Source: Gammaproteobacteria bacterium (GTDB taxonomy: Bacteria; Pseudomonadota; Gammaproteobacteria; Pseudomonadales; IMCC2047). Taken from it: DNA of 64,000 bases. Below are positions 13,156-44,187 of this stretch, one piece after another. Position 1 is the first letter of the stretch. Each line of letters begins with the position of its first letter. The notes under the pieces are model-generated. The model saw only the letters and a list, made by a program, of their open reading frames with translations, did no database searches and was not told where the DNA came from. A program made the translations under genes and the position numbers. Location of the stretch: positions 57,420 through 121,419 of the forward strand of contig JAJFKB010000025.1 in assembly GCA_021773395.1 (NCBI GenBank), given 5' to 3'.

Positions 13156-13260
13156 TTGGGTTCGGTTTCCCTTGTAAATTAACTTAGTAACATTATAGCG
13201 GTATACAGGGTTTTACCAGTACGTTTCCACTGGCATTAATTCATGACCAATAACTACCTA

Positions 13261-13524
13261 GGCAACCTCTGAATAACTCATTAATGTCTCTGCGAGACCT
13301 GAAAGCTTTAGCTACAAGGCAGGAACTGCCGCTAATGCTTATTGCCGTAGCAAAGTTTCTAACGCCGCAGATGAAGCTTTCAGCCCTCGCCCTGCGGGGG
13401 TTACAGAGTATTCGTAGCTCTGCGTTGGCTTTGATTGCAAGGTCTAGACATTCCTGCACAAAGCCGCCTTGATCTACAAATGCTCTTTTAGCCAGAGATA
13501 TCAAGGAGTTATTCAGAGATTCCC
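13261..13524 (+). mobile_element. 264-bp MITE-like element, copy 1
   Basis: Non-coding element with imperfect terminal inverted repeats of about 24 bp (left GGCAACCTCTGAATAACTC, right complement GGGAATCTCTGAATAACTC), flanked by TA on both sides, which may be the target duplication. A second element of exactly 264 bp lies at 43785-44048 in the opposite orientation and matches over its whole length (roughly 85-90% by eye). The open frame at 13284-13472 inside it has no start signal and is not a gene. No transposase is in the window; it would be moved in trans. Confidence 0.75.
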
Positions 13525-13711
13525 TAGAGAATCCCCGATGAAATACACCGCGAAAAGCGCATCCTAGCGAGATCAAATTGATCAGTACAGAGAAATTACT
13601 ACAGAAAAGATATATATGTGTGGGATTCGCTGGTTTGTATTCCTGTAAGCAGGAAAATGGGAAGTGGGCGCAAAAAGAAAATTACAGTTCCTGACCAGCT
13701 ATAGTGAATGG

Positions 13712-19729: not shown

Positions 19730-19773
19730 TGGATGGCCGAAGGCCCAGATTGAACTTTGGCATTTTGTTATGC
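19730..19773 (-). repeat. attC-like 5' half (R'' box GCATAAC) at the end of a cassette gene
   Basis: On the minus strand GCATAAC (19773-19767) contains the TAA stop of the small membrane-protein gene and is the exact reverse complement of the GTTATGC that starts that gene's segment at 20097-20091. This R''/R' match is what a circularised integron cassette would show. The following AAAATGCCAAAGTTC and CTGGGCCTTCGGCC could be the left arm, but I find no matching right arm, so the site looks truncated. Confidence 0.45.
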
Positions 19774-20070
19774 ATTACCTGCAGACCACCAAAGTAGATA
19801 TGCCGCTAGTAAATTTATGAATACTCCTATAGGAGATACAAAAACCATAGAGGCTATGGAATATGCGAGAACATTTGCCCGTTTAAATAGCCAGATAAAT
19901 AGACCTATGACCAAGCAAATTGGCAATGGCAAAAGAATAAACTTGGCAATTTCAAATATTGCTTCTGAGCTAAAACTCAAACCTTCGATACTAATTGAGA
20001 CTGCAACGATAACTAAGTAGCTGAGGATATAGATTGCATATGCTGGTAACGCATACTTCTTATATTTCAT
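19768..20070 (-). CDS. Small membrane protein of unknown function, cassette-borne
   Basis: 100 aa, about three hydrophobic segments (YAIYILSYLVIVAVSISI, FILLPLPICLVIGLFIWLF, SIASMVFVSPIGVFINLLAAYLL). I do not recognise a family. It starts 26 bases after the GTTATGC box at 20097-20091 that ends a 196-bp repeat, and its stop lies inside the GCATAAC box at 19773-19767, the layout of an integron gene cassette. The gene is AT-rich compared with the flanks. GGAG precedes the ATG at a short distance. Confidence 0.65.
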   Translation of the reverse strand: MKYKKYALPAYAIYILSYLVIVAVSISIEGLSFSSEAIFEIAKFILLPLPICLVIGLFIWLFKRANVLAYSIASMVFVSPIGVFINLLAAYLLWWSAGNA

Positions 20071-20090: not shown

Positions 20091-20293
20091 GCATAACAGC
20101 TGTATACCGCGCATGCGGTTTTTGCCGCCAGCACACATCTTCGCAGCGACTCTAATTGATTGAATAGAAAGGAATTTGAAGGATTTTTCCAGAGTCCCTT
20201 CTGAACAAAGTGAGCGTGCCTCATCTGTACTCCTTGAGGTGGTCTGCGTACCGATCCACCTAACATCGCTAACACATCGATTCTGCATCATAT
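20091..20293 (-). repeat. 196-bp dispersed repeat, copy A, ending at a GTTATGC crossover-like box
   Basis: On the minus strand it starts ATATGATGCAGAATCGATG (20293) and ends with GTTATGC (20097-20091). A second copy of the same length (39933-40128, plus strand) starts ATATGATGCAGAATCAATG and ends GTTAGCT. Conserved blocks include GTGTTAGCGATGTT, AGGAGTACA, AAGGGA-TC-GGAAAA-TCC and CGCATGCGC-GTATACA. In both places the end of the repeat is the start of a cassette-like gene segment. It has no clear attC hairpin structure; an attI-like or capture-site role is a hypothesis. Translations within it (20060-20291) are not genes. The rest of the 20294-20560 gap shows nothing I can name. Confidence 0.7.
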
Positions 20294-31128: not shown

Positions 31129-33135
31129 ATGAAGCCTTTTATCAAGAGCCTTTGCGCCACAATAATTCTTATTCCTGGTTTATCCGTGGCTGGCGCTGCT
31201 CAGGTGACTATTCTGGACGCTACACATGATCCTGCGGGTAATTTTCTGGCCTACACCGAATTTGAATTGTCCGGGGAGCCGTTAGCGGAGTCATTGGGGC
31301 TGGACCTTGATGTATTGGATCCTAATACTGTGAATCAGCCAAGTGTATTTGATTACACCGCAGGTATTGAAAGCTACGAGTACTCTGAGGAAGCTATGTA
31401 CGCGCTGAATTACCAATCGCAGATGGGCCCGCATCTGGTTAATGGTCCACAGCATGGTTCCGGAGCTGGTATTAAAGCGCTGGATCAGCGATTGAACGAA
31501 TTGGCTCATGCTGTGGGCTTTCCGGCGGAGGAAATTCCTTCAAATCTGTACCCGATTTCACTGCCCTATCAAAGGGGTATGCCAAAACTGAGTCTGGTGG
31601 ATGCAGTGACTATTGAAGGTGAGGAGATCAAGGTGCTCAATGCCAGGGGACAAGCATTGACTCAGAAAACGCGAGTCAATAATTACGTTAGTGATTATAA
31701 AAATATGCATTGGGATCGAGACAGTTTTTCCAAGGTGATTAACCCGGCCGCGGTGGGAGGCATACTCCTGAAAGAGGTGATGTGGTCTCAGGATTTCCTG
31801 GGCGGAATGCATGACGCAAAAACAGACGAAGAACTTGAAGCGCAATCTTCAACGATGGATCACAGTGGTAAGTATCGATTGGGCGTATCGGCGGCAGATG
31901 GGTTTCAGGGGATGCTGCTCACAGAGATTTCTCTGGACAAGATGTTGATGCTTCAGGACATGCTGGGCTATGACGGAAATCGGCTCGGGGTAAAGATAGC
32001 ACCCGATTATGATGCGAAAAGAAAACCGGTATGGTTTGCACATCAGGTTGCAGTTTTAGAGAAAAAGCGCAATGGTGTTAACGCTCTGGGCCAACTATCA
32101 GTGATCGACGGTCGCTCAACTTTGCGAGATACCTGGATGCTGCTCTGGCCTGCCAGCGAATTTTTTGCCTTTAGTGATCAGCGAATCGAAAATACTGCAC
32201 AGAACCCGGCATTTAACGCGGTGTTTGATGGAGCACCCTTTGCTGCCGCTCCGGAAGTGAATAAAGATTCCCAGGCAAATAATGATGTGCCGGGAGTAGA
32301 CGCCTTCTCGTTGTCCGCAAATTTAAGCAATATGCTGTTTCAGAATATCGATACCCTGCATTTCAATCAACAGGCTGGCACTTTCGTTGATACCTTTATG
32401 GACGGTAAACAGGGGAGTCGTGTTAGCAGTTTTGATGCGGCGTACAGTTTGGCAGCACTATCGATTTTTCAACGTGCCCAGGATGCGCTACCGGTAGGTT
32501 ATGCCGCTGGCGATACGGGCGACCTTAATTTGCGCACAGATGCTGGGAAAAGAGCGTTTGCCATGATCACAGCGCAGGCGGATTACCTGTTAACGAATGC
32601 TATCGATAGCAGAGGGCTGGTATTTGATGCAACTGAGCTGGGTAAGAAAGCGATTGGAAGCCAGTCTCTGGCCACGCAATTTGCAGTGATACGAGGGTTG
32701 ATTGCTGCCGGGTCGGCGACTCAATCACCAGCCTATCTCGATGCGGCAAAAAAGATTTATCTAGCCGTCGAAGAGCATCTCTACGATGCGCAACTGGGAA
32801 CCTGGTCTGATCATCCGGGTATGGCGGCTGAGTTCACACCCTGGACGGCTGCTGCGATTTCCGGCGGGCTGCGAAAAGTGATGTTGCATCTGGCTAATCA
32901 GGAGGGCGAACATGAGCCGGCGCTGGAACTGCGACATCTAGCCAAGCGCTACTCGGACTGGTTCAAGATCACGGTTAATGGCGCATTACAATTAGCGGAG
33001 CCGGATGGAGATACTGGTGAGAACAGGCTTGAAGACTTGAATGAAAATGATTCTGATGCAGATGGCGTTTTATCAATAACCGGTGCAGGTTATGCACCTG
33101 TAATGGCCAACAGAGTTCGTTTGAGTCTCGAATAG
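31129..33135 (+). CDS. Secreted protein of unknown function with helical-repeat C-terminal domain, Fur-box controlled
   Basis: 668 aa. Signal peptide (FIKSLCATIILIPGLSVAGA|AQ). I do not recognise a family. The central region is mixed alpha/beta; residues about 430-620 have repeated amphipathic helices (SFDAAYSLAALSIFQRAQDALP, AFAMITAQADYLLTNAI, LATQFAVIRGLIAAGSATQS, YLDAAKKIYLAVEEHLYDAQLG) like an alpha/alpha-toroid. The C-terminus has DLNENDSDADGV, a calcium-loop-like pattern. No CxxCH. GGAG precedes the ATG. With a perfect Fur box 195 bp upstream it is expected to be made under iron limitation. Its partners may be the b-type and c-type cytochromes that follow. Confidence 0.7.
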   Translation: MKPFIKSLCATIILIPGLSVAGAAQVTILDATHDPAGNFLAYTEFELSGEPLAESLGLDLDVLDPNTVNQPSVFDYTAGIESYEYSEEAMYALNYQSQMGPHLVNGPQHGSGAGIKALDQRLNELAHAVGFPAEEIPSNLYPISLPYQRGMPKLSLVDAVTIEGEEIKVLNARGQALTQKTRVNNYVSDYKNMHWDRDSFSKVINPAAVGGILLKEVMWSQDFLGGMHDAKTDEELEAQSSTMDHSGKYRLGVSAADGFQGMLLTEISLDKMLMLQDMLGYDGNRLGVKIAPDYDAKRKPVWFAHQVAVLEKKRNGVNALGQLSVIDGRSTLRDTWMLLWPASEFFAFSDQRIENTAQNPAFNAVFDGAPFAAAPEVNKDSQANNDVPGVDAFSLSANLSNMLFQNIDTLHFNQQAGTFVDTFMDGKQGSRVSSFDAAYSLAALSIFQRAQDALPVGYAAGDTGDLNLRTDAGKRAFAMITAQADYLLTNAIDSRGLVFDATELGKKAIGSQSLATQFAVIRGLIAAGSATQSPAYLDAAKKIYLAVEEHLYDAQLGTWSDHPGMAAEFTPWTAAAISGGLRKVMLHLANQEGEHEPALELRHLAKRYSDWFKITVNGALQLAEPDGDTGENRLEDLNENDSDADGVLSITGAGYAPVMANRVRLSLE

Positions 33136-33245
33136 ACCTGTTGCATACCTCGGTGTAGCACTGCCCTCACTTGAAGCGGGGGCAGCGATTGACTTTACTT
33201 GGGTTCGCTTACCTTGTTTATGTTCTCTCGCTTCATCTCACGCTA

Positions 33246-33285
33246 CTTTGCTTTGCTTTGCTTTGCCTTGCCTTGCTTTACTTTG
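33246..33285 (+). repeat. Pentanucleotide tandem repeat (CTTTG)8, imperfect
   Basis: Eight consecutive 5-bp units: four CTTTG, two CCTTG, one CTTTA, one CTTTG. It lies in the 33136-33505 gap, about 160 bp before a Fur-box-like site and 220 bp before the b-type cytochrome gene. The surrounding CT-rich sequence (33225-33320) is also low complexity. Open frames across it are not genes. Confidence 0.75.
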
Positions 33286-33444
33286 CGTCACCTCGCTTTG
33301 CTTTAACTCACCACATTTCACTGCGTCTATGGGGTTGCCAATTTTTTGAACAGCTGATTTGAGGATATTTTGGCTTGCCTGTCCGGTGGGGGGATTGGAC
33401 TTGATCTAAATCATATAAAATAAACTGAGGCCGGTATTGCGATT

Positions 33445-33463
33445 GATAGCGATTCTCATTAGC
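33445..33463. promoter_or_regulatory. Fur box candidate upstream of the b-type cytochrome
   Basis: GATAGCGATTCTCATTAGC matches 14 of 19 positions of the Fur consensus. It lies 43 bp before the ATG at 33506, a position suited to repression. Confidence 0.55.
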
Positions 33464-33505
33464 TTTATAATTCTCATTAACTATCCACTCCTAATGGGTT
33501 TTTAA

Positions 33506-33997
33506 ATGTCAGTACGGCAGGCCAACATAGCTTTTGATAACCGTTTACCAATGGGTGGATTGGTGACTCGTTATTTGGACTGGCTGACTTATCATCACCG
33601 CATGGCCGAATGGATGTTGCTGCTACTTTTCTTTACCGGGTTAGTACTTTGGGATCGTATCCCCATGGTGTGGCCGGTTTTTCGGTGGTCATTGATTATT
33701 CACGTCGCGGCGGGATTAATTATTTTCCCTCTCACCACAGGCTTATTTTGGGTGAGCCACCGCAGATTACTGAAATCCAGTAAAAAGCCGTTTTTACGCA
33801 TTACCGGGCAGTTACTTGATTGGTTGCTAAGCGTTTGTTTTTTGAGTGGTCTGATACTTGCCTTTTGGGGGGCTACTGGTAATACGCTGAGCACCTGGGT
33901 GAGCGATATTCACTGGGTCAGTGGTTTACTGATGGGGCCAATGATGGTCAGGCATGCCTGGCGATTTTCCGTATTACGCTTTTTTAAGCGGGGTTAG
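33506..33997 (+). CDS. b-type cytochrome, cytochrome b561-like four-helix membrane protein
   Basis: 163 aa with four hydrophobic helices: MAEWMLLLLFFTGLVLWDR, WSLIIHVAAGLIIFPLTTGLFW, LLDWLLSVCFLSGLILAFWG and HWVSGLLMGPMMVRHAW. Histidines in YHHRMAEW, IIHVAAG, IHWVSG and VRHAW are well placed as heme ligands. It would link the quinone pool to the large multiheme cytochrome encoded 41 bp downstream. Preceded by a Fur-box-like site. Confidence 0.78.
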   Translation: MSVRQANIAFDNRLPMGGLVTRYLDWLTYHHRMAEWMLLLLFFTGLVLWDRIPMVWPVFRWSLIIHVAAGLIIFPLTTGLFWVSHRRLLKSSKKPFLRITGQLLDWLLSVCFLSGLILAFWGATGNTLSTWVSDIHWVSGLLMGPMMVRHAWRFSVLRFFKRG

Positions 33998-34038
33998 TCT
34001 CCGTCCTGGTTGAAATAGGGCTGGCCAAGTGTTCAAAT

Positions 34039-37000
34039 GTGCGACGTATTTTGGACGCTTTACGGGGAATCGTTAAACAAATCATGAGATATTGCTCGCC
34101 GGTGACACTCACCTGTAAATCAGTTTTTTGGCAGAGTAGCATTCCCCTCCGTTGCCTGGCTTATCCGAATCTGCGGAAAAAGCGGACTGGATTTCCACCT
34201 ATCATTTGTTGTCTGGTGATTCTTTTGTTGCTGTTATCGACTTTTTCCCGGGCTTCCCAGGAAAGCGCGAGTATGCAATGGTCTGCCGATCAACGTACTA
34301 TTTTCAGTGCTAACCTGTGGCAGGGTTCGATTACCCGTATAGATCGCAGCACTTCAAACATTGCGCAGGCCCAGCGCGAATTGAAAGTAGGTCAGGATAT
34401 TCGAAGGCTGGCGCTTGATTCAGAGGGTCATGTGCTGCTGGCGACAGATTATCTGGGTGATTCAATTGTCATTGTAGATATCGAAAAATGGAAAATTGAA
34501 AGGACGTTAGCGGTTGGTAGGCGTCCATTCGCAGTGGTTTATCAGCCCGCACGTAATCGGTTTTGGATCACGCTGTCTGAGGATGCTCAGCTTATCGCCA
34601 TTGAAAAGGGGGAGATCGTTGAGCGGGTGGTTACGGCAGAAACTCCCAGAGGATTGGCGTTGACTGAAGATGGGCGATTGCTCGTCAGTCATGCCATGAC
34701 GGGAGAAGTATCCCTGTTCGATGTGGCGCAGAGCGGTTCCCCAACCCGCCTGATAAAACGGATAAAATTACATGAAGTGCAGCTCCCGGATGAGTTTGCA
34801 TCTCAGGGTCGGCCGAGGCTATTGGATGATATTGCCATTAGCCCTGATGGGTCAGAAGCATGGTTACCCCATGTGCTATGGAATTTTGATCATGAATTCC
34901 AGTTCCAGTCGACGGTATTTCCCGCTGTTTCTTTGTTGGATCTGACACCGGGTAATGAGCATGAATTGGTGGAACAACGGAAACAATTGTTTCAAACGAT
35001 TAATGTTATCGACAATAACAGTCGTACGCGCATTGTATCGAATCCGCATGACGCTGAATTTTCCGAATCCGGAGCGAAAGTCTACCTAACCCTGGCCGGT
35101 TCCGATGACCTGCTGGTTTTTGATCGTTCGCGTTCCGGGAAGAGCAATAAAAAAAGACATCGTCGTCGTAAGCAACAGGGCGGCGCGAAAGCAATACAGA
35201 TTTATCGGCATGTACCGGGTCGAAATCCAAGAGGGCTGTTGATAGAGAATAATCAGTTGTGGGTGCAAAATGCTGTTGATCAGACTATTAGCCTGCTGGA
35301 TAGAGGGGGCGATCATCCCTTTGATAGGGTGAAACTGGAGCAGGCTGAGTGGGCCACTACATCAGCGGTCATCGACAGTGCCATTCAGCGCGGACGAGCC
35401 TTGTTCCATTCCGCACGCACCGATACTGACCCGAAATATCCTGTTGCGGGAGATTTCTGGATGAGCTGTAACAGTTGTCATCTGGACGGCTTCAACTTTA
35501 ATAACCGTTATCTGGTTGAGGAGCATGCGCAGGATAAGAAACAGGATGCACGTTCTGGTCACCCGGGGCTTCAACATATGGTCAGTGGTAATCCGATATC
35601 GGATTTTATAACCATTATTCAAAAAACCCAGGGTGGACTGGGAGAGGATGATAGGGACGGCGCCTTGCCGGTGGATCCGGCGAAACCACCACAGTCCGTG
35701 CATGATGCGATGACGGATCTGCTGGCGCTAGTGACGTTACCGCATAATTTACCCTATACCGGCACCTGGCTGCGCTTGGAAGATCAATCGTTGACGCACC
35801 CTGAGCAATGGCGTAACTCTGCTTCCTGTGCTGAATGCCATCAAGAGATGTATGATCAATGGGCGGATTCCAATCACCGCCTCATGGGAGAATCCAACCC
35901 CTATTTTAAAGTCTTGTTGAATTTGGCTGGGGAGACCGAAGGTGAGGCTTTTAAAAGCTGGTGCCTTGGCTGTCATGCGCCGCAAAATCTGATGAGTGGT
36001 AAACTGGATCTTGGCGAAAATGGGCATATGTTTGAGAAAAATGGTGCCTCGCTTTACGCTGCGCTAGATCGCAAAGAGCCGGATCTGGACGAGGGAACCG
36101 GCTGTCTGTTTTGTCATCGTATCACCGGGATAGAGGATGCTGGAGGTAATGGGTCTTTCCGCGTAAATCTGAAAGATCGGGAGCGCTATGTGGGCGAAGA
36201 TGATCTGAAGTCTGATCTGATGCAGTGGGTCTCCAGTCGTTTGATTAACGCCAAGCCTGAAGTCCATAAACGTTCCTACTCACAACCCTTTTATACCGAT
36301 CCGCAGCTTTGTAAAACCTGTCACAATGAATTTGCACCCGGTAGTGGTGCATTGATTGTGGATACCTACAACGAATGGCTGCTATCTTCATTCAATAATC
36401 CTGCTGATCCAAGTAAGCATCGCAGCTGTATTGATTGTCATATGCATGCGGATGTCGCAAGGATTGGTGAAGATATTGAGGGTCGATCGACGTTGCGTGG
36501 CCCGCTTAAGAAAAATGTCGTCACGCATCAGTTTACCGGTGCGAATCATCACCTGGTTGGCCTGCGTAACAAAGAGCTGGAGCGCATGAGTATTGAGCTT
36601 TTGCGTTCCGCTGGAGAGTTGCAGCAGCAACTGATGACAGACGGACAGCTTAGAGTCAGGGTTACCAATAAGGGAGCGGGACACGCGCTGCCAACCGGTG
36701 TCGCCGATTTTCGTCAGTTCTGGCTGGAGGTCAGGGTGACAGATAGCACGGGCAATGAGGTCTATCGTTCCGGGGCTCTGGATAAAGGGGGCAATCTGGA
36801 TCCCAAAGCGCGAGTTTTTATGAAGGAGTTCGGGGATATGCAGGGCAAACCGGTCGGGCTATTGTTTTGGCGTTATGCCAAGTTATTAAGTGACACAAGG
36901 ATTCCGGCAGATGGCTATCGGGATGAGATTTATCAATTGTCCAAAGATGTTCAGTTTCCGATAGATGTTAAAACGCGATTGCTCTACAGAATTTACCCAC

Positions 37001-37152
37001 AATGGGTGACCAATATTGTGCGCGAATCTGAACCGGATTTACCGGATCCAAAAGTTGTTGAGTTGCAATCGCTGGTTAGTCGTTTTTCTTCTGATGAATT
37101 GAAGCGAGTGCCAGGCGAGTCAATTTTGCAGAATTCTTATCAGCCGCGCTGA
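34039..37152 (+). CDS. Beta-propeller plus hexaheme cytochrome c
   Basis: Up to 1037 aa (GTG 34039; ATG 34084 also possible). A basic N-region and hydrophobic helix (IICCLVILLLLLSTFSRA) form the export signal. Residues about 75-440 are a YVTN/NHL-like beta-propeller (LLATDYLGDSIVIVDIEKW, LLVSHAMTGEVSLFDV, VYLTLAGSDDLLVFDR). Six CxxCH heme sites follow: CNSCH at 477, CAECH 597, CLGCH 642, CLFCH 689, CKTCH 758 and CIDCH 797; the last five resemble cytochrome c554-like packing. The C-terminal 240 residues lack hemes. Likely a periplasmic or outer-membrane electron carrier fed by the b-type cytochrome. Its 3' end overlaps the convergent cofC gene by 77 bp. Confidence 0.85.
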   Translation: MRRILDALRGIVKQIMRYCSPVTLTCKSVFWQSSIPLRCLAYPNLRKKRTGFPPIICCLVILLLLLSTFSRASQESASMQWSADQRTIFSANLWQGSITRIDRSTSNIAQAQRELKVGQDIRRLALDSEGHVLLATDYLGDSIVIVDIEKWKIERTLAVGRRPFAVVYQPARNRFWITLSEDAQLIAIEKGEIVERVVTAETPRGLALTEDGRLLVSHAMTGEVSLFDVAQSGSPTRLIKRIKLHEVQLPDEFASQGRPRLLDDIAISPDGSEAWLPHVLWNFDHEFQFQSTVFPAVSLLDLTPGNEHELVEQRKQLFQTINVIDNNSRTRIVSNPHDAEFSESGAKVYLTLAGSDDLLVFDRSRSGKSNKKRHRRRKQQGGAKAIQIYRHVPGRNPRGLLIENNQLWVQNAVDQTISLLDRGGDHPFDRVKLEQAEWATTSAVIDSAIQRGRALFHSARTDTDPKYPVAGDFWMSCNSCHLDGFNFNNRYLVEEHAQDKKQDARSGHPGLQHMVSGNPISDFITIIQKTQGGLGEDDRDGALPVDPAKPPQSVHDAMTDLLALVTLPHNLPYTGTWLRLEDQSLTHPEQWRNSASCAECHQEMYDQWADSNHRLMGESNPYFKVLLNLAGETEGEAFKSWCLGCHAPQNLMSGKLDLGENGHMFEKNGASLYAALDRKEPDLDEGTGCLFCHRITGIEDAGGNGSFRVNLKDRERYVGEDDLKSDLMQWVSSRLINAKPEVHKRSYSQPFYTDPQLCKTCHNEFAPGSGALIVDTYNEWLLSSFNNPADPSKHRSCIDCHMHADVARIGEDIEGRSTLRGPLKKNVVTHQFTGANHHLVGLRNKELERMSIELLRSAGELQQQLMTDGQLRVRVTNKGAGHALPTGVADFRQFWLEVRVTDSTGNEVYRSGALDKGGNLDPKARVFMKEFGDMQGKPVGLLFWRYAKLLSDTRIPADGYRDEIYQLSKDVQFPIDVKTRLLYRIYPQWVTNIVRESEPDLPDPKVVELQSLVSRFSSDELKRVPGESILQNSYQPR

Positions 37153-37795
37153 TACGCCGTCGCAGTGCTTCCAGATCAGCCGGTATATCTACATCTAAAT
37201 CGCCATTTTGAAGAGACAGATCGTGGCATGCGATGCCATGGGTTTTCGCTTCTTGCTGAAAACGCAGATAACTTCCCTGGCCATAAACCAGAGGCAGGGG
37301 AAAGGGCAGTGGTGCGAATACCAGATTACTCCCGGTGCCCTGTTTGCAAGGCACGATAGCGATGGCTTTTTCCTTTGAGCTTGAAACCAGGTGTTGCGCC
37401 TGATTGATTAACTGGTCGATATGATGGCTATTCAGTAATGGCAGGTCGGCATGCAGGATTAAACAGTGGCTGGCACCATTTGCATTCGCGTAGTTACAAG
37501 CAAAAGCTAAGTCATTGTTTAAGCCCTTTTGCTCGGCAGGTTTTAACCATTCGGCGTTAACGGCAGCGCACAGCGCCTGTGCGACTTGATCACCAGAAAC
37601 CAAAAGTACGTGATCTATATTTTTGCATTGTTGCAATACTGCCAGCACGTCCCTGGCCATAGCCAGCGTTAGCTGTATACGTTCGTCGCTGCTCAGTACC
37701 CCCGATAAGCGTTGCTTGCTGGAGGTAATAATTTTTAACGGCACAATGGCCCAAATAGACACCGCTACTGCATCCTCGTTGCCAGTTGCAGACAC
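37076..37795 (-). CDS. cofC: 2-phospho-L-lactate guanylyltransferase CofC (F420 biosynthesis)
   Basis: 239 aa nucleotidyltransferase fold: WAIVPLKIITSSKQRLSGVLS, HCLILHADLPLL, AIVPCKQGTGSNLVFAPLP, GSYLRFQQEAKTHGI and LDVDIPADLEAL match CofC/FbiD. It activates phospholactate, phosphoenolpyruvate or 3-phosphoglycerate with GTP; which one cannot be told by eye. The start overlaps the cofD end by 31 bp. Last gene of the cofE-cofD-cofC operon, and convergent-overlapping with the multiheme cytochrome gene. Confidence 0.92.
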   Translation of the reverse strand: MSATGNEDAVAVSIWAIVPLKIITSSKQRLSGVLSSDERIQLTLAMARDVLAVLQQCKNIDHVLLVSGDQVAQALCAAVNAEWLKPAEQKGLNNDLAFACNYANANGASHCLILHADLPLLNSHHIDQLINQAQHLVSSSKEKAIAIVPCKQGTGSNLVFAPLPFPLPLVYGQGSYLRFQQEAKTHGIACHDLSLQNGDLDVDIPADLEALRRRISAADKNSAKLTRLALASIHQKKND

Positions 37796-38721
37796 TCGTT
37801 GGCCAACATTACTCTGTCTTCAAGCGTCTTCATCAGGGTATTACAGGTGTGAACGCTGAGTGAAGAGGGCAGTGCAACCGCTTCCGCAGCATCCGTTGAA
37901 TCGATGATAAAGCCTGAAAGGAAATCTGAATAATGTGCGGCCACTGTATTCCCGGTTACTTCGAGCGAAAGCTCCTGCATGATTTTTGCCGTCGGTCCTT
38001 TTACCGCTTTACCGCCGATTACGGGCGATACTGCCAGCACGGGCACCTGCAATTTTGCCAGTTGCTCCCGGACACCCAACAGCGAAAGTAGCGGGTCGAT
38101 GCTGAGAAAGGGATTGGAAGGACAAATGATAACGCAGCCCAGATCGTGATTGGCGAGTTCCTGTGTAAATCCAGGGCTAGGTTTTGCCTGCTCTGAACCA
38201 ACGAAGCGAATCGCACTGATCACGGGTTGGCATTGCTGTTCCACAAAGTAGCGTTGAAAGGGAATCCAGCCGCTCGCAGTTTTAACCTCAGTTTCGATGC
38301 GTTCATCCGTCATGGGAATCACCGAATGTTCGATACCGACTTTGCTACACAGGTCTGCGGTCACTTCGCTGATGCTCAAACCTTTATCTAATTGCGTGCG
38401 GCGATACAGATGAGTCGCCAAGTCCAGATCGCCCAGCTTAAACCAGGTTTCTCCCTGCAACGCGCGCAGAGCCTCCATGCAGCGCCAGGACTCATTGGCG
38501 CGACCCCATCCGGTTTCCTGATTACTCAGCCCTGACAGGGTATAGGTGACCGTATCCAGATCCGGGCAGATCCTCAGGCCCATATGATCGAAGTCGTCGG
38601 CAGTGTTGACAACGATCGATAGCTGATCCGGGCCAAGTACCTGGGTTAATCCCAGCGCCAGCTTGGCACCTCCGACACCGCCACACAGTGCCAGTACTCT
38701 TTTGTTTTTAGGCCAATTCAT
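37765..38721 (-). CDS. cofD: 2-phospho-L-lactate transferase CofD (F420 biosynthesis)
   Basis: 318 aa. VLALCGGVGGAKLALGLTQVL at the N-terminus, NTADDFDHMGLRICPDLDTVTYTLSG, LGDLDLATHLYRR and VIICPSNPFLSIDPLL are diagnostic of CofD/FbiA. It joins the activated three-carbon unit to the deazaflavin Fo, giving F420-0 or its dehydro form. Thirty-nine bases separate it from cofE upstream. No Fo synthase (cofG/cofH or fbiC) lies in this window. Confidence 0.95.
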   Translation of the reverse strand: MNWPKNKRVLALCGGVGGAKLALGLTQVLGPDQLSIVVNTADDFDHMGLRICPDLDTVTYTLSGLSNQETGWGRANESWRCMEALRALQGETWFKLGDLDLATHLYRRTQLDKGLSISEVTADLCSKVGIEHSVIPMTDERIETEVKTASGWIPFQRYFVEQQCQPVISAIRFVGSEQAKPSPGFTQELANHDLGCVIICPSNPFLSIDPLLSLLGVREQLAKLQVPVLAVSPVIGGKAVKGPTAKIMQELSLEVTGNTVAAHYSDFLSGFIIDSTDAAEAVALPSSLSVHTCNTLMKTLEDRVMLANECLQLATRMQ

Positions 38722-38760
38722 TACAAATATAACCTTCCGGTTGAATATGATTTTGAATAT

Positions 38761-39519
38761 TTAAGTAAAAAGATCTTCTTCCAGTGGGCGAATCAGCGCG
38801 CTGCTGTTGCCTTCACCACTGATGTTCATCCCGCGAATGTGCACAATCGGTGTTCCTTCCGAGGCCTCTCCCATTATCAGTGATGCAGCGGCGGCTATTT
38901 CGTCACCATTTGCAGGCATGGTAACCTGAAGTATCTTGCCGAACAGGTCTGTTTCTCCTCGCTGATCCTGTACCGCATGAATACCTGCGCAACCAATGCA
39001 TACACCGGTAGTCCCCATTCTCCAGGGGCGCCCAAAGCTGTCACAGATAACAATACCGATTGTCACGCCGGTTTCTTCACGAATTGCGTTGCGTAACTGC
39101 TGAGCACTTCGGTCGGGATTCTCAGGTAACAGCAGGAAAAGGTCTTCATCGTTACCAATATTTGATTGATCCAGTCCAGCATTCGCCATCACGTGTCCCA
39201 GTTTGTGTCGCACAATCAGCACGCCACGAGACGCGCGAATTACCTGGCTGGACTCGTTCAGAACCAACTGAACCATACGAGGATCCTTGTCACATGTGAG
39301 GGCTAACTCCTTGGCTTGTTGTGAAGGCACCGTGTCTGACAGACGGGCAAATCTGTTTTCCGATTTGGATACAATTTTCTGGGCTAACACCAGAATATCA
39401 TCGGATTGTAATTCGATACCGTTCTGCTCCAACGCCTGTAAAACTGCTGGTAGCAGCGGTTCACCCGGTTCGATGAGTGGGAAGCCGTCAAGCGCAGTTA
39501 ATTCCAGCATGGCTGCCAT
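38761..39519 (-). CDS. cofE: Coenzyme F420:L-glutamate ligase CofE
   Basis: 252 aa. ILVLAQKIVSKSENRFARL, VIRASRGVLIVRHKLGHVMANAGLDQSN, IGIVICDSFGRPWRMGTTGVCIGCAG and MGEASEGTPIVHIRG are the CofE/FbiB N-terminal domain signatures. It adds glutamates to F420-0 with GTP. The nitroreductase-like domain that actinobacterial FbiB carries is absent, so this is the archaeal/proteobacterial short form. First gene of the operon; two ATGs (39519 and 39510) could start it. Confidence 0.95.
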   Translation of the reverse strand: MAAMLELTALDGFPLIEPGEPLLPAVLQALEQNGIELQSDDILVLAQKIVSKSENRFARLSDTVPSQQAKELALTCDKDPRMVQLVLNESSQVIRASRGVLIVRHKLGHVMANAGLDQSNIGNDEDLFLLLPENPDRSAQQLRNAIREETGVTIGIVICDSFGRPWRMGTTGVCIGCAGIHAVQDQRGETDLFGKILQVTMPANGDEIAAAASLIMGEASEGTPIVHIRGMNISGEGNSSALIRPLEEDLFT

Positions 39520-39836
39520 CGATTGTTTCCTTTGTTGCGTGATAATGAAAAAGATGAAATGGGTACAGCTTCAGAAAAAGAACGGTAATCCGGTAACCAA
39601 AATGGGCGAGTAATATACCATTAAATAGCCGCCAACCCAATTAATCTATTAATCTGCCTGTAAACACCGATGATAGTTTACTGAATTCGGTGGAAGTAAT
39701 CATGCAGGCTGTAGAGTGACCAACAGGTCGTCGATTAGGGCAGGGGGGAGAGGAGAGTTAAATTGGGAGTTAGGTAAACTGTCTTTGGAGCGGTGCTAAA
39801 AATGGGCTGGCTACACGAGATCCTTTCGTTAACTAA
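39520..39836. other. Gap upstream of cofE
   Basis: No gene supported. It holds the cofE promoter region (minus strand), an 8-bp direct repeat of ATTAATCT near 39640, the left 31-bp direct repeat of the accessory island (39667-39697) and otherwise nothing I can name. Confidence 0.5.
39667..39697 (+). repeat. Left 31-bp imperfect direct repeat bounding the cassette island
   Basis: CCGATGATAGTTTACTGAAT and following bases match 24 of 31 positions of 42946-42976 in the same orientation. The core AGTTTACT-AATT is shared. The two sites enclose the 3.3-kb block with the 196-bp repeat, the acyltransferase and the toxin-antitoxin cassettes. Confidence 0.5.
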
Positions 39837-39856
39837 TACTGTGTAAATATGCAGTA
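39837..39856. promoter_or_regulatory. LexA-like box next to repeat B
   Basis: TACTGTGTAAATATGCAGTA fits CTGT-N8-ACAG with one mismatch (GCAG). LexA sites often control integron integrase genes, and this one lies 77 bp before a repeat that leads into cassettes. No integrase gene is found next to it. The downstream ATG at 39880 gives only 17 codons. Confidence 0.4.
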
Positions 39857-39932
39857 TAACAAGAGGAAGTCAACAAAACATGCTCGTTTTGCGCCTGCAA
39901 AATGGCTCGCTTTGCACTGGCTTTATTTCCTA

Positions 39933-40134
39933 ATATGATGCAGAATCAATGTGTTAGCGATGTTCGGTGGGTAGATACGCGGACCCCCTTAGGAGTACAT
40001 ACTCGACTGGCTCGCTTTGTTCGGAAGGGAATCCGGGAAAATCCTGAAAATCCCTTTCGATTCAGTCAATTACCGATATCGCTGAAAAATGCGTTAGCGG
40101 CAAAACGCGCATGCGCAGTATACAAATGTTAGCT
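39933..40134 (+). repeat. 196-bp dispersed repeat, copy B, ending at a GTTAGCT crossover-like box
   Basis: Same family and length as 20293-20097 (minus). It ends at G40128; GTTAGCT (40128-40134) is the exact reverse complement of the AGCTAAC box that opens the first attC site at 42127. So the segment from 40129 to 42212 behaves as a cassette, and this repeat occupies the place of attI or of a preceding attC. It contains GCGCATGCGC and other short palindromes but no complete attC hairpin. The open frame 39902-40132 within it is not considered a gene. Confidence 0.7.
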
Positions 40135-40160
40135 TTCAAAAGGTCGAGAGGAAACAGAAC

Positions 40161-42203
40161 TTGCAGTATAGGAAAGAAATTGACGGACTGAGAGCGTTAG
40201 CAGTCTTGCCCGTAATATTATTTCACGGCAACTTGTTTGGCGTGACGGGTGGTTATGTCGGAGTTGACATATTTTTCGTAATAAGTGGATATTTAATAAC
40301 TTCAATTATATCCGAAGAAATTGAAGGAAATCGATTTTCAATATTAAATTTTTACGAGCGAAGAGCGAGACGCATTTTACCGGCGCTTAGTGTCGTATTG
40401 ATATTTACCACTATAGCAGCATTTATTCTGATGCCTGCCGATTTTCTCAAATCCTATTCTCAAAGCTTGGTATCGGTAGCCGCATTTTCTTCAAATGTTT
40501 TTTTCTATTTAACTAGTGGATATTTTTCAACTGCATCCGATGAAAAGCCTCTATTGCATACATGGAGCTTAGCTGTCGAGGAACAATATTATATATTTTT
40601 CCCTGTTTTGCTTTCTGTGCTTTGGTTTATTGGCAAAAAACGACTTGTCTTATTCATATTATCATTATCAATATCATCCTTACTTCTATCGCAATACTTG
40701 TCTTATAAGCAAGCTGTAGATGCTAACTTTTATCTTATCTTTAGCCGTGCCTGGGAATTGTTTGCTGGTTCACTAATAGCGATTATTGGTAGAAAATATT
40801 TATCTATACCAAAAAGTAGTAAAGACATTCTTGGAGGCATTGGGTTAGCTCTCATTATTTATTCTATTGTGTTTTTCGACAAACAAACACCGTTCCCCAG
40901 CATTTACACACTGGTTCCTGTAATCGGGACCTTGCTAATTATTGCTTTTGGAGACAGCACAACATTTGTTGGAAAATTACTGAAACATAGATTATTTGTT
41001 GGTATTGGTCTTATTTCATATTCGTTGTACTTATGGCATCAGCCGTTATTCGCATTTTTACGGATGAAGACAATTGGCGAGCCTAATGAACACATGTTTG
41101 TTGGCGCTATAATAGTCACATTTACCTTGTCGATATTGAGTTATAAATTTATAGAAACGCCGTTTAGAAATAAAAAATTCATCCCAAGAAAGAGAATCTT
41201 TCAATTTTCAGTTGCGTCCATTGCTGTGTTTTTATCAATTGGGCTGTCAGGTCATATTTTTAAAGGATATGAGGGCCGGTTGAAAGAATCACATTATTTA
41301 GAAACTGCGCAATTCAGTCCGAAAAGAAAAGAATGCCATACAAAAGGTGAAAGTTACCTCAAACCTGAAAACGCTTGTAGATATTTTGCTAATAATGTTA
41401 CTTGGGCGAGCTTTGGTGATAGTCATACCGTAGAGCCCGCCTACGCACTAGCAAAACTGCTTGAAAAAGACGGTAACGGATTGTTGCATCTCAGTTTTAG
41501 TGGGTGCCCTCCTTCCTTATTATTTGAGGTGAAACAGCCTGGTTGTACTAAGTGGATTCATGAGGCGCTATCTTTTCTAGAAAATAACGATTCTATAACA
41601 AACATTCTACTTGGTTTTAGATATAGCTCTTTTCTTTTTGGCGATCAATTGGACTCATACCCAGAGACTCCCAATATAGACCCAATTGACACTTTTTCTG
41701 AAACATCTCGTAAGAACCTACATGGCGATTCTAGAGAAGTATATTGGCATAGCTTTAATGAAATCGTTCGCAGATTATTGCAATCAGGTAAGAAAGTTTA
41801 TGTGTTTTATCCGATACCTGAACTGCCAACACACATATCGAAGGCTGTAACACCGTTCTCTGTTTTTGGATATCGAACAATGCTCAATTTAGAGAAATCA
41901 ACAAGTAAAAAGTATTATTTTTCAAGAAATGGTTTCATACTAAATAAACTTAACACTCTACCATATAGCGATAAACTTTATGCCATAAAACCCTTTGATA
42001 TCTTATGCGACGAAGAATATTGTCCAGCCGTAAGAAATAAAACAGCACTCTACTTTGATGACGACCACCTTAGTGTAGAAGGTTCTAAATTATTACTTGC
42101 TGGAAGTGTGATAGCAAAGAATTTAAAGCTAACAAAAGCATCCAGCGGACTGGCAAAAGCTGCGCCGCTCGTACCTCGCTATGCAGCTTCTGCCAGCCGC
42201 TGA
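40161..42203 (+). CDS. OafA/YrhL-type membrane acyltransferase with C-terminal SGNH domain (cassette gene)
   Basis: 680 aa from TTG 40161 (GAGAGGAAAC upstream). Acyltransferase-3 domain with about ten membrane helices: YRKEIDGLRALAVLPVILFH (catalytic His), GGYVGVDIFFVISGYLITSII, FYERRARRILPAL, HTWSLAVEEQYYIFFP. The C-terminal extracytoplasmic part is SGNH-like (TWASFGDSHTVEP; FDDDHLSVEGS with Asp/His). Such enzymes O-acetylate lipopolysaccharide O-antigen or other surface glycans. The gene is clearly more AT-rich than its surroundings. It starts 27 bp after a GTTAGCT box and its last 25 codons lie inside attC1, so the C-terminal tail is encoded by the recombination site. Confidence 0.88.
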   Translation: MQYRKEIDGLRALAVLPVILFHGNLFGVTGGYVGVDIFFVISGYLITSIISEEIEGNRFSILNFYERRARRILPALSVVLIFTTIAAFILMPADFLKSYSQSLVSVAAFSSNVFFYLTSGYFSTASDEKPLLHTWSLAVEEQYYIFFPVLLSVLWFIGKKRLVLFILSLSISSLLLSQYLSYKQAVDANFYLIFSRAWELFAGSLIAIIGRKYLSIPKSSKDILGGIGLALIIYSIVFFDKQTPFPSIYTLVPVIGTLLIIAFGDSTTFVGKLLKHRLFVGIGLISYSLYLWHQPLFAFLRMKTIGEPNEHMFVGAIIVTFTLSILSYKFIETPFRNKKFIPRKRIFQFSVASIAVFLSIGLSGHIFKGYEGRLKESHYLETAQFSPKRKECHTKGESYLKPENACRYFANNVTWASFGDSHTVEPAYALAKLLEKDGNGLLHLSFSGCPPSLLFEVKQPGCTKWIHEALSFLENNDSITNILLGFRYSSFLFGDQLDSYPETPNIDPIDTFSETSRKNLHGDSREVYWHSFNEIVRRLLQSGKKVYVFYPIPELPTHISKAVTPFSVFGYRTMLNLEKSTSKKYYFSRNGFILNKLNTLPYSDKLYAIKPFDILCDEEYCPAVRNKTALYFDDDHLSVEGSKLLLAGSVIAKNLKLTKASSGLAKAAPLVPRYAASASR

Positions 42204-42218
42204 TGCAAGTCGTTATAA
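42127..42218 (+). repeat. attC recombination site 1 (92 bp)
   Basis: R'' AGCTAAC (42127-42133) and R' GTTATAA (42212-42218) border an imperfect inverted repeat: GCATCCAGCGGACTGGCA and AAAGCTGC on the left against GCAGCTT, CTGCCAGCCGCTGATGC on the right. The left arm has two unpaired extra bases (C and A), the extrahelical bases that orient integron attC sites. R'' is the reverse complement of GTTAGCT at 40128, and R' is that of TTATAAC at 42831, as expected for two adjacent cassettes. Confidence 0.82.
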
Positions 42219-42240
42219 ATTGCCCTAGCCCTGAGTTTCT

Positions 42241-42265
42241 ATATGTACTAAGATGTAATACATAT
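42241..42265. promoter_or_regulatory. Operator candidate of the toxin-antitoxin cassette
   Basis: ATATGTA (42241-42247) and TACATAT (42259-42265) form a perfect inverted repeat with 11-bp spacing, 20 bp before the antitoxin ATG. Fits autoregulation by the ribbon-helix-helix antitoxin. Confidence 0.5.
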
Positions 42266-42285
42266 GAATACAACGGTGAGTTCAA

Positions 42286-42549
42286 ATGAGTATTACAAGT
42301 ATCAGACTAGCAGATGATATCGATAAGCCCCTTGAATCCTTAGCTAACAAACTCGATAGAAGCAAAAATTACCTTATAAATCAGGCAATAAAGGAATTTT
42401 TGATTAGGCAATCGCTTGAGGAGTTGCGGTGGGCAGACACAATGGAGGCCTTAGAGTCTATTCAGTCAGGTAAATCAATTGATGAAGCGGATGTGAATGC
42501 TTGGTTGAACAGCTGGGGCACTGGTGAGCGCGAAGATCCGCCTAAATGA
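42286..42549 (+). CDS. CopG/ribbon-helix-helix antitoxin
   Basis: 87 aa. N-terminal RHH DNA-binding motif (SITSIRLADDIDKPLESLANKLDRSKNYLINQAIKEFL in blocks) and a C-terminal toxin-binding tail (WADTMEALESIQSGKSIDEADVNAWLNSWG). Overlaps the toxin gene by four bases (ATGA). GGTGAG upstream. It neutralises and co-represses with the RelE/ParE toxin. Located in an integron-type cassette bounded by attC1 and attC2, a common home of such stabilising modules. Confidence 0.9.
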   Translation: MSITSIRLADDIDKPLESLANKLDRSKNYLINQAIKEFLIRQSLEELRWADTMEALESIQSGKSIDEADVNAWLNSWGTGEREDPPK

Positions 42550-42836
42550 TCGAGGTTAAGTATTCCCCAGAATCGATTGAAGACCTCCAGCGAGTAGTGG
42601 AATTCGTCGAAGTTAAAAATCCATTCGCTGCACGAAGAATTGCTATTGATCTTCAAGAGGGAGTGTCTAGGCTCAAACAGTTTCCACATATTGGCCTCCC
42701 AGTTATTAAAGCTCCTGATCCAGAAAAAATCCGAGATCTATATGTCGGTGATTACACCGTGCGGTACCTAATAAATGAATACACCATTTACATTTTAAGA
42801 GTTTGGCACAATAAAGAAAACGAGAAAAATTTATAA
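42546..42836 (+). CDS. RelE/ParE family toxin
   Basis: 96 aa: EVKYSPESIEDLQRVVEFVE, PFAARRIAIDLQEGVSRLKQFPHIGLP and RDLYVGDYTVRYLINEYTIYILRVWHNKENE are typical of ParE/RelE toxins. Whether it cleaves mRNA (RelE) or poisons gyrase (ParE) cannot be told; the terminal RVWHNKE is the usual active-site end. Its TAA stop lies inside the attC2 R'' box TTATAAC. Coupled to the antitoxin by an ATGA overlap. Confidence 0.9.
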   Translation: MIEVKYSPESIEDLQRVVEFVEVKNPFAARRIAIDLQEGVSRLKQFPHIGLPVIKAPDPEKIRDLYVGDYTVRYLINEYTIYILRVWHNKENEKNL

Positions 42837-42883
42837 CGAATAAGGATAAGTCGCGCGTGCCGCGACTTATCCCATTGTTGAAC
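42831..42883 (+). repeat. attC recombination site 2 (53 bp)
   Basis: R'' TTATAAC (42831-42837) and R' GTTGAAC (42877-42883, a perfect GTTRRRY) flank an 11-12-bp stem GGATAAGTCGCG / CGCGACTTATCC with a five-base loop. Outward, AACGAATAA against ATTGTT pairs with unpaired extra bases on the left arm. Short attC sites of this size are known from Pseudomonas and Xanthomonas integrons. No further R'' match to GTTGAAC (GTTCAAC) follows, so it closes the array. Confidence 0.8.
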
Positions 42884-42945
42884 AAGCCCGGCCTAGTCGC
42901 TTCTTTCTAATGTAAATAAATAGATTGGGTATTCCGGTGGGTATT

Positions 42946-42976
42946 CCGGTGACAGTTTACTTAATTAAGTGAAAGC
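42946..42976 (+). repeat. Right 31-bp imperfect direct repeat bounding the cassette island
   Basis: CCGGTGACAGTTTACTTAAT and following bases; 24 of 31 positions equal those at 39667-39697. Just before it GGGTATTCCGGT is duplicated (42927-42950). The remaining 42977-43169 gap shows nothing recognisable. Confidence 0.5.
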
Positions 42977-43169
42977 GCCTGTGGGATATATTGGCTGACC
43001 GGAACCTAAGCCGGGAAATAGCAGAAAGGGATGATTCCCATGATATTTGGAAGAATAGTCAGTGCTGAGAAATAGCTATAAAATGCCAATTTGCCGGCAT
43101 TGATTCGCTACCCGTGATTTTCAGTGAGCGCTCGCCGTAATACAAATTATTTGTATAGGCAGGAATGCA

Positions 43170-43670
43170 ATGAAAGATATCAATGATAAGCCAGTCAAAC
43201 CTTCCGACATTTTGAATCCCAACCCTGAAACGCATGAACAATATACGCTCCAGGACTATAACCAGGATATGACAGAAGTAGCGCAGGGGAACTATGGCGC
43301 TCTGGCGAGAATTGGGTTGCCCAAGCCGAAGTTTGATATCGGGGGTATTTGGTTTTTTATAATGTTACCAGTACTGCTGGCCTGGTTACTTATTGTTGAC
43401 CCTTTTAACGGCTGGGTGCGCTGGCGCGTGATCGGGTTATTGCTGGGTGTGGCCGTGACGCTGATTATATTCGGGGTACTGGTCTTTGTCGGCGTTCAAC
43501 AGGAACTTGGCGAACCATTCGGGTTATCGGAAAACAGTCCTGCCTTTCTGCTGTTGGAGAATATTGGCGCAGCTGGTCTGGCCACTGCTGTCCTTTTCAT
43601 TTGGCCGCGTACCATCGCTCTACTCTTGGTGATTGCTGCCGTTATCTCGCTAATAAGATGGATTGTTTAG
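43170..43670 (+). CDS. Membrane protein of unknown function
   Basis: 166 aa. Hydrophilic N-terminal 60 residues (PSDILNPNPETHEQYTLQDY), then GGIWFFIMLPVLLAWLLIV, WRVIGLLLGVAVTLIIFGVLVFVG, NIGAAGLATAVLFIW and TIALLLVIAAVISLIRWIV, about four membrane helices. Family not recognised. GCAGGAATGCA upstream of the ATG gives AGGA. Stand-alone between the cassette island and the second MITE. Confidence 0.7.
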   Translation: MKDINDKPVKPSDILNPNPETHEQYTLQDYNQDMTEVAQGNYGALARIGLPKPKFDIGGIWFFIMLPVLLAWLLIVDPFNGWVRWRVIGLLLGVAVTLIIFGVLVFVGVQQELGEPFGLSENSPAFLLLENIGAAGLATAVLFIWPRTIALLLVIAAVISLIRWIV

Positions 43671-43784
43671 GCAGTTTTTCTAAACAGTATCCAGTTTAAT
43701 CATCAAAGAAACAGAGAGGAGAGCCTCACATCCTGGATCGATTGCCAGGTTGCAAAATGTGCTCTGTAGGAGTCTAATTGGTTA

Positions 43785-44048
43785 GGGAACCTCTGAAAAA
43801 CTCCTTGATCCTTCTGGCGTACAGAGCGTTTGTAGATCAAGGCGGCTTTGTGCAGTAATGTCCAGACCTTGCAAGCAAAGCCAACGCAGAGCTACGAATG
43901 TCCTGTAAGCTCCGGAGGGCGATGCCTGAAAGCTTCATCTGCGGCGTTAGTAACTTTGCTAAGGCAATAAGCATTAACGGCAGTTCCTGCCTTGCAGCTA
44001 AAACTTGCAGGTCTCGCAGAGGCATTAAGGAGTTTTTCAGAGGTTCCC
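43785..44048 (-). mobile_element. 264-bp MITE-like element, copy 2
   Basis: Near-perfect terminal inverted repeats GGGAACCTCTGAAAAACTC... on both ends, flanked by TA on each side (43783-43784 and 44049-44050). It is the reverse-oriented counterpart of 13261-13524 and equal in length. Its termini are better conserved than those of copy 1, suggesting it is younger. It lies in the 43671-44187 gap directly upstream of gltB and may affect its promoter. The frame at 43837-44025 is not a gene. Confidence 0.75.
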
Positions 44049-44187
44049 TAAAGTACCTTTAATCAGGTACTCATTGAATGATTTATTTTGAGGTTTGGCG
44101 CTGTCAGCCGCTTATTCCGAGCCCGGTTGCCAAAGTCTGCCAGAAGCCAGAGAGCGGCGTCCGCCAAGTCTTCTCGAAAGTAATCTT

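Follow-up and report, generated by a model that had tools for sequence, protein, structure and literature searches.

Two places in a 64,000-nucleotide stretch of a gammaproteobacterial genome (the window; G000:C18:57420-121419) carry a similar sequence that stops at a GTT box, beyond which unlike genes begin, and the question raised by this locus is what kind of site such a sequence represents. An earlier note on the window had read the two copies as a 196-bp repeat of equal length, a dispersed and immobile docking sequence for gene cassettes. Our analysis indicates that the repeat is very probably an attI (the primary site at which an integron docks cassettes) in dispersed form, occurring at several chromosomal places and mostly without an integrase gene. 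The source genome is assembled as 3.8 Mb in 26 contigs and is 98.9% complete; handles of the form G###, L### and C## denote genomes, loci and contigs, with G000 being the genome of the window.

Both copies are present and end as described, at GTTAGCT in copy B and GTTATGC in copy A. Copy B (39933-40134, plus strand) and copy A (20293-20091, minus strand) are ~79% identical across ~200 bp, a likeness far from chance (E = 2.6e-40 in a search of their own genome). These ~200 bp are alike in both, but copy B starts further left, at ~39830, so the equal length did not hold (Table 1). Nor is the repeat limited to two copies: the whole-genome search yielded 8 in total. The right end is common to 6 of the 8 (copy B, copy A, L002, L003, L006 and L007), with ATTAGTA in place of GTT in L002, and is lacking from L005 and L008, while the left ends vary among the copies. 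The strict 25-nt end pattern, at up to 2 mismatches, is found in only 3 of the source-genome copies, and the LexA-like box is degenerate in L006 as it is in copy B. A different gene or sequence follows the right end at each of the six right-ended copies, extending to all of them what had been seen at two; a constant sequence past the box, the outcome that had been named as counting against the docking idea, was absent at these six and was seen only in 4 Marinomonas copies. Three other members of the family that were searched (the sister species G001 is 83% complete) lack the repeat. We also found no blastn match to the 308-bp unit in plasmid and phage records at E <= 1e-5, no exact match in viral contigs to one 20-mer of the repeat (the sole pattern tried there), and no Rfam match in the window at gathering scores.

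Table 1. Coordinates of features at the copy-B and copy-A loci of the window.
Feature	Position	Strand	Basis
Copy B, attI-like unit, from degenerate LexA-type box to crossover box	39830..40134	+	77% over 308 bp to L006 (contig C13); 88% over 281 bp to L002
Degenerate LexA-type box CTGTGTAAATATGCAG, copy B	39839..39854	.	Sequence; an intact CTGTN8ACAG precedes intI in Marinomonas
Left arm CATGCTCGTTTT of inverted pair, copy B	39879..39890	+	Sequence; arm judged by eye identical or similar in Marinomonas copies and in several others
Weak promoter-like site TTTGCA-17-TATGAT toward cassette, copy B	39911..39939	+	3 sites in 700 bp vs 1.4 in shuffles
attI core GCGCATGCGCAGTATACAAATGTTA, copy B	40107..40131	+	25-nt pattern in 55/391 genomes of the order; reversed control 1
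Crossover (R') box GTTAGCT, copy B	40128..40134	+	Sequence
Acyltransferase-3 and SGNH protein, 680 aa, first gene past copy B	40161..42203	+	Pfam PF01757, PF19040
Two-gene module in copy-B insert: ribbon-helix-helix protein and ParE-type toxin	42286..42836	+	PF01402, PF05016
166-aa protein in copy-B insert, without Pfam match	43170..43670	+	Pfam search
268-nt repeat with terminal inverted repeats, near right end of copy-B insert	43783..44050	.	89% to 13259-13526; ends by eye
Segment unaligned in sister species	39660..44163	.	L153 of G001; glutamate synthase is the gene at 44095 (Pfam)
Copy A, attI-like unit, left side truncated at 20293	20091..20293	-	79% to copy B
Crossover (R') box GTTATGC, copy A	20091..20097	-	Sequence
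Cassette gene behind copy A, encoding 100 aa; no match in Pfam	19768..20070	-	ORF and Pfam search
R'' box GCATAAC over stop codon, exact reverse complement of copy-A R' box	19767..19773	-	Sequence

The nature of the element can be read from its place in Marinomonas (genus g29, a name assigned by inference, as is M. posidonica for G067). It occurs in at least 43 of the 48 Marinomonas genomes, at up to at least 15 copies per genome. An integron integrase (IntI) at E < 1e-80 was detected in 7 of 18 Marinomonas genomes searched, the one of G125 scoring 396.7 bits against the integron integrase model TIGR02249 (cut-off 265). In six of these seven genomes (G125, G397, G400, G401, G273 and G410) the element lies just upstream of intI and divergent from it, and in the seventh, G394, the contig ends at that place. 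We assembled 55 distinct Marinomonas copies, leaving out palindromic reverse hits, 5 hits without TGTTR and matches that stop short of model position 139. An intI of at least 250 aa lies within 1.5 kb of 10 copies, a short intI fragment accompanies 3, and 42 have none; 10/55 and 42/55 are not rates, because the IntI search itself supplied loci L114-L121 and L131. Nine of the 10 intI-adjacent copies have an intact LexA-type box (CTGTN8ACAG) at a distance of 294-297 bp ahead of the GTT, and an intact box is found in 2/3 of the copies with an intI fragment and 5/42 of those without intI. This position, divergent from intI and with a LexA box at a near-constant distance, identifies the element as the attI of the Marinomonas integron. 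The 20 bp before the GTT are as well kept in the 45 copies without a full intI as in the 10 with one (identity to the intI-adjacent consensus of 0.94 vs 0.95), whereas identity over the LexA stretch is 0.60 without a full intI as compared with 0.93 with it. The docking idea is thus supported far beyond the window, both by these homologues in the attI position beside intI and by the cassettes that follow the dispersed copies.

In integrons, the 7-base R' box at the crossover is complementary to the R'' box with which the attC of the cassette begins. Of the 55 Marinomonas copies, 51 are followed within 90 bp (median 28) by the start of an ORF of 40 aa or more, and 28 of these 51 show an exact R'' box at the stop of this first ORF; 2000 permutations gave a mean of 0.16 and at most 2 (kinship ignored). 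Allowing up to one mismatch raises the number to 36/51 (permuted mean 9.6, maximum 19). Exact boxes occur in 4/9 intI-adjacent copies vs 24/42 other Marinomonas copies. Outside Marinomonas, an ORF of 40 aa or more begins no further than 90 bp away at 22 of 25 pattern loci, and 8 of these 22 carry an exact R'' (permuted mean 0.18, maximum 2), 4 of the 8 having scored positive already when 11 loci were first examined. The exact R'' is absent at the tested stop in 23/51 Marinomonas and 14/22 other copies. In L140, the element is followed by GTTAGCC, a 169-aa ORF, GGCTAAC and an attC-like hairpin, with more cassette-like units beyond; the locus reads as an array of several cassettes. At five loci a simple attC finder gave 7, 2, 4, 7 and 4 sites on the right strand vs 6, 4, 6, 6 and 2 on the wrong one, and because it fails to separate the strands, our attC assignments rest on R''-R' matching and on reading of the sequence. 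The arrays of M. posidonica share 99%-identical segments of 549, 350 and 531 bp between different arrays, which we read as exchange of near-identical cassettes within one genome, while the attI units of the closest pair are 11% different over 763 bp. At attI copies L113, L121, L135 and L226, as well as in a G029 match, the GTT is replaced by ..AAAATAATGAAATGG.., which at the four copies is perhaps another insertion at the crossover.

Within the source genome, R'' matching is exact at an ORF end for 3 of the 6 right-ended copies (copy A, L007 and L003, the last with its box 12 bp past the second ORF), L006 matches with one mismatch, and L002 and copy B show none. The 680-aa gene behind copy B has no R'' box at its stop, exact 7-mers occurring there only within ORFs, and the cassette identity of this gene is thus unproven. 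No attC was found within 5 kb of copies A and B by our own finder, which does not discriminate between strands. The interval from the F420 ligase gene to the glutamate synthase gene measures 382 bp in the sister species G001 vs 4645 bp here, so that the window holds ~4.3 kb of extra sequence, headed by copy B. An empty site for copy A was not found in the three family members, in which its AraC neighbour has no ortholog (best 33% identity). The window also contains two inverted, MITE-like 268-nt copies (13259-13526 and 43783-44050), the second with terminal inverted repeats AGGGAACCTCTGAAAAACTCCTT as judged by eye.

The only recognisable IntI of the source genome is a 331-aa protein (C13:408-1403; TIGR02249, 421 bits), sharing 68-79% identity with proteins from Porticoccus, Zhongshania, Microbulbifer and further relatives. 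It carries a different attI, 49 bp of which are common with L023 at 94%; the sequence upstream of this intI (L009 1-480, G000:C13) holds that attI together with an intact LexA-type box, and because the contig ends ~400 bp upstream of the gene, no cassette array is assembled there. A Marinomonas IntI query against the source genome returned the C13 gene and four weak tyrosine-recombinase matches. We found no IntI remains near the source-genome copies, hence no complete integron (intI, attI and cassettes) at any of them, and no IntI in this genome with the repeat's type of attI. Since its only recognisable IntI has another attI, the source-genome copies are probably relics, the attI sites of an integrase that the lineage has lost or that lies in the unassembled part. 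Several tyrosine recombinase genes lie near one another at G000:C17 ~32945-42325.

With the 308-bp unit as query and two candidates scored per genome, matches were obtained in 27 of 391 genomes of the order, the source genome and 26 others; in all of the 26 except G181 and G128 the match is confined to the final ~34-40 bp before the GTT. The 25-nt end pattern occurs in 55/391 genomes, distributed over 24/142 genera, the single genome with the reversed pattern being G350. In 34 of the 55 genomes it is matched at least twice. Outside Marinomonas, the same end adjoins an IntI in G091 that is 60% identical to that of G125.

The copies are dispersed and old rather than tied to a single locus, and one of them occupies a conserved locus in Marinomonas. 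In at least 16 of the 48 species, as counted by hand from match coordinates, an attI lies behind a cydC-like gene on the same strand and within ~3.5 kb (G415, G414 in part, G409, G410, G397, G391, G407, G401, G098, G172, G392, G405, G067, G344, G125 and G327). The best model for the gene is CydC, TIGR02868, at 304.6 bits, below the cut-off of 329. In G125, G410, G397 and G401 intI is found elsewhere in the genome, and further right of the locus the same four genes occur in G397, G415, G410 and G098. The first ORF after this attI was a singleton among the ORFs compared in 6/6 genomes (G125, G410, G397, G415, G067 and G098); a recombinase gene takes the place of a cassette in G391 and G392, and no ORF is present in G405. 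The comparison covered at least 10 kb for nine genomes and ~1.5 kb or less for the others; a scan of 3-kb cydC loci with a motif overlooked copies lying over 1.5 kb downstream, and G401 escaped the motif.

Immobility as proposed for the repeat is not supported, since the copies have multiplied within genomes. G125 combines one clear IntI with at least 14 other attI copies. Three loci of M. posidonica (L140, L141 and L142) and one of G344 (L085) agree with the sequence beside intI in G125 over 344-360 bp counted back from the GTT, a span that takes in the LexA box and the first intI codons, and then depart from it; among themselves they are alike for 494-700 bp, across the point of departure. 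The shortened form, standing at several loci, therefore multiplied after most of intI had gone. Of five related copies in G415, four have ~575-620 bp in common and the fifth ~490 bp. At L140, L141, L085 and L143, a block matching sequence beyond the 3' end of the G125 intI lies before the attI, as if the whole platform had been copied and intI lost later, which is not certain because the block belongs to frequent repeats. Fragments of intI adjoin the attI at L113, L121, L131 and L082 and in G195. A tyrosine-recombinase gene follows the same junction, GTT then GAACTAAGCC (GTTGAACTAAGC), in four Marinomonas genomes (G391, G405, G213 and G392; loci L164, L181, L076, L089 and L190), and the same junction is found ~310 bp after the attI in L102. 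At L190 (G391) an IS91-family transposase gene (NF033538) comes after the recombinase gene, and an IS91-type element as carrier of attI is a lead only. Near the attI at L189 (4740-5711) and L108, a protein weakly resembles REP-associated tyrosine transposases (NF047646, E 3.8e-11, below cut-off), and REP-like hairpins form part of the G415 unit.

Taken as a dispersed attI, the element would work as at a normal platform, with IntI joining circular cassettes, through their attC, to the GTT box of each attI copy; such joining would leave a different gene after each copy, mostly within ~30 bp. Site, crossover and product can each be observed at the dispersed copies, and we infer that IntI acts on the copies without intI in trans. 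With a clear IntI in only 7/18 Marinomonas genomes, trans action would be past or absent in the others, and the source-genome copies would have been served by an integrase now lost. Whole platforms may have been copied, with loss of intI afterwards. A broader proposal, which we put forward tentatively as a serious possibility, is a distributed integron, in which one integrase serves scattered attI sites in trans, and the sites multiply without an integrase and are kept at fixed loci, for instance behind a cydC-like gene, as variable cassette ports. The copies might instead be nothing but the remains of complete integrons, each gained or duplicated together with its intI, inactive since the loss of intI and with cassettes that predate it. 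The intI fragments beside attI fit such an account, as do the block from past the intI 3' end with the middle of intI missing (though that block may be an intergenic repeat), a LexA box that is not intact in 37/42 intI-less copies, and a source genome without a cognate IntI. It is harder to reconcile with the intI gap shared by L140, L141, L142 and L085, with the numerous additional copies accompanying the one clear IntI of G125, with an attI core kept as well as beside intI, and with first cassettes that differ at a conserved intI-less locus. We therefore regard it as possible but rather doubtful.

Other readings would remove attI from the explanation altogether. It is highly improbable that the repeat is a long attC, whether it belongs to a species-type attC family or forms the end of a cassette without an ORF, and that the loci are ordinary CALINs: inverted arms (..CATGCTCGTTTT / AAACGCGCATGCGC..) do accompany the GTT end, and an arm-pairing search flags L140 as attC-like, but the element occupies the place of attI beside intI at its near-constant distance from the LexA box, and attC candidates inside the arrays differ from it in sequence. 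An attC-type bottom-strand hairpin, with R''-R' and L''-L' pairing, was not found either, the folding z-scores being -0.31 and -0.82 in copy B and between +0.44 and -1.80 on the bottom strands of 4 Marinomonas copies; the description of the repeat as not a hairpin was thus roughly right, inverted arms being present and folding not clearly better than that of shuffled sequence. Cassettes might also have been inserted at chance attG-type sites within a dispersed non-coding repeat, given that IntI can use secondary genomic sites and that Xanthomonas often has cassette clusters remote from intI (PMC12444791); the cassettes tested here, however, follow an element homologous to the intI-adjacent attI, leaving this account a very slim chance. 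Scarcely credible, finally, is a MITE- or promoter-type insertion element that landed just upstream of resident genes. A dispersed non-coding repeat lying closely before ORFs, with a weak promoter-like site in copy B, might suggest it, but such an element explains neither the fixed right end with its variable left end, nor the position beside intI, nor R''-R' matching far above the permuted level, and copy A has no promoter-like hit. The suggestion that the repeat supplies a promoter likewise remains unproven: Marinomonas copies gave 30 promoter-like hits vs 42 in mononucleotide shuffles, hence no excess, although 14 of the 30 cluster near -97/-67.

As a dispersed attI, the element resembles the primary attI of an integron in being divergent from intI, with a LexA box on the intI side, a GTT crossover and a first cassette within tens of bp; it departs from it in that several copies occur per genome, most of those examined lie away from intI, and no IntI was found in some genomes. 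Secondary attG sites also receive cassettes in the chromosome outside the platform, but they share only a short consensus, whereas the site here is a 150-300 bp homologue of attI. A CALIN comprises at least two attC sites with no intI nearby. Akin to CALINs and SALINs, the loci described here hold cassettes with R'' boxes away from intI, yet they have a homologous attI at their head, a feature outside the CALIN definitions. In Xanthomonas, about half of the genomes contain CALINs at a distance from intI (PMC12444791), and off-target insertion, intI loss and rearrangement have been proposed as CALIN origins (PMC8618304). The Delta-attI gene cassettes of class 1 integrons (PMC12901181) likewise place attI-derived sequence off its usual location, but within unusual cassettes of mobile arrays, whereas the attI copies here head chromosomal arrays. 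According to PMC9024848, an integron typically has a single attI near its integrase, and attI sites other than those of class 1 are poorly described. We found no report of dispersed attI copies in the openly accessible journal literature searched.

Scattered attI copies could explain the origin of some integrase-less cassette clusters. They could also provide every array with a first position of its own and open IntI action in trans to direct testing, and they pose the question of how an attI can be copied in the absence of integrase. If the distributed integron were true, CALINs in such genomes would be separate attI-headed arrays rather than accidents.
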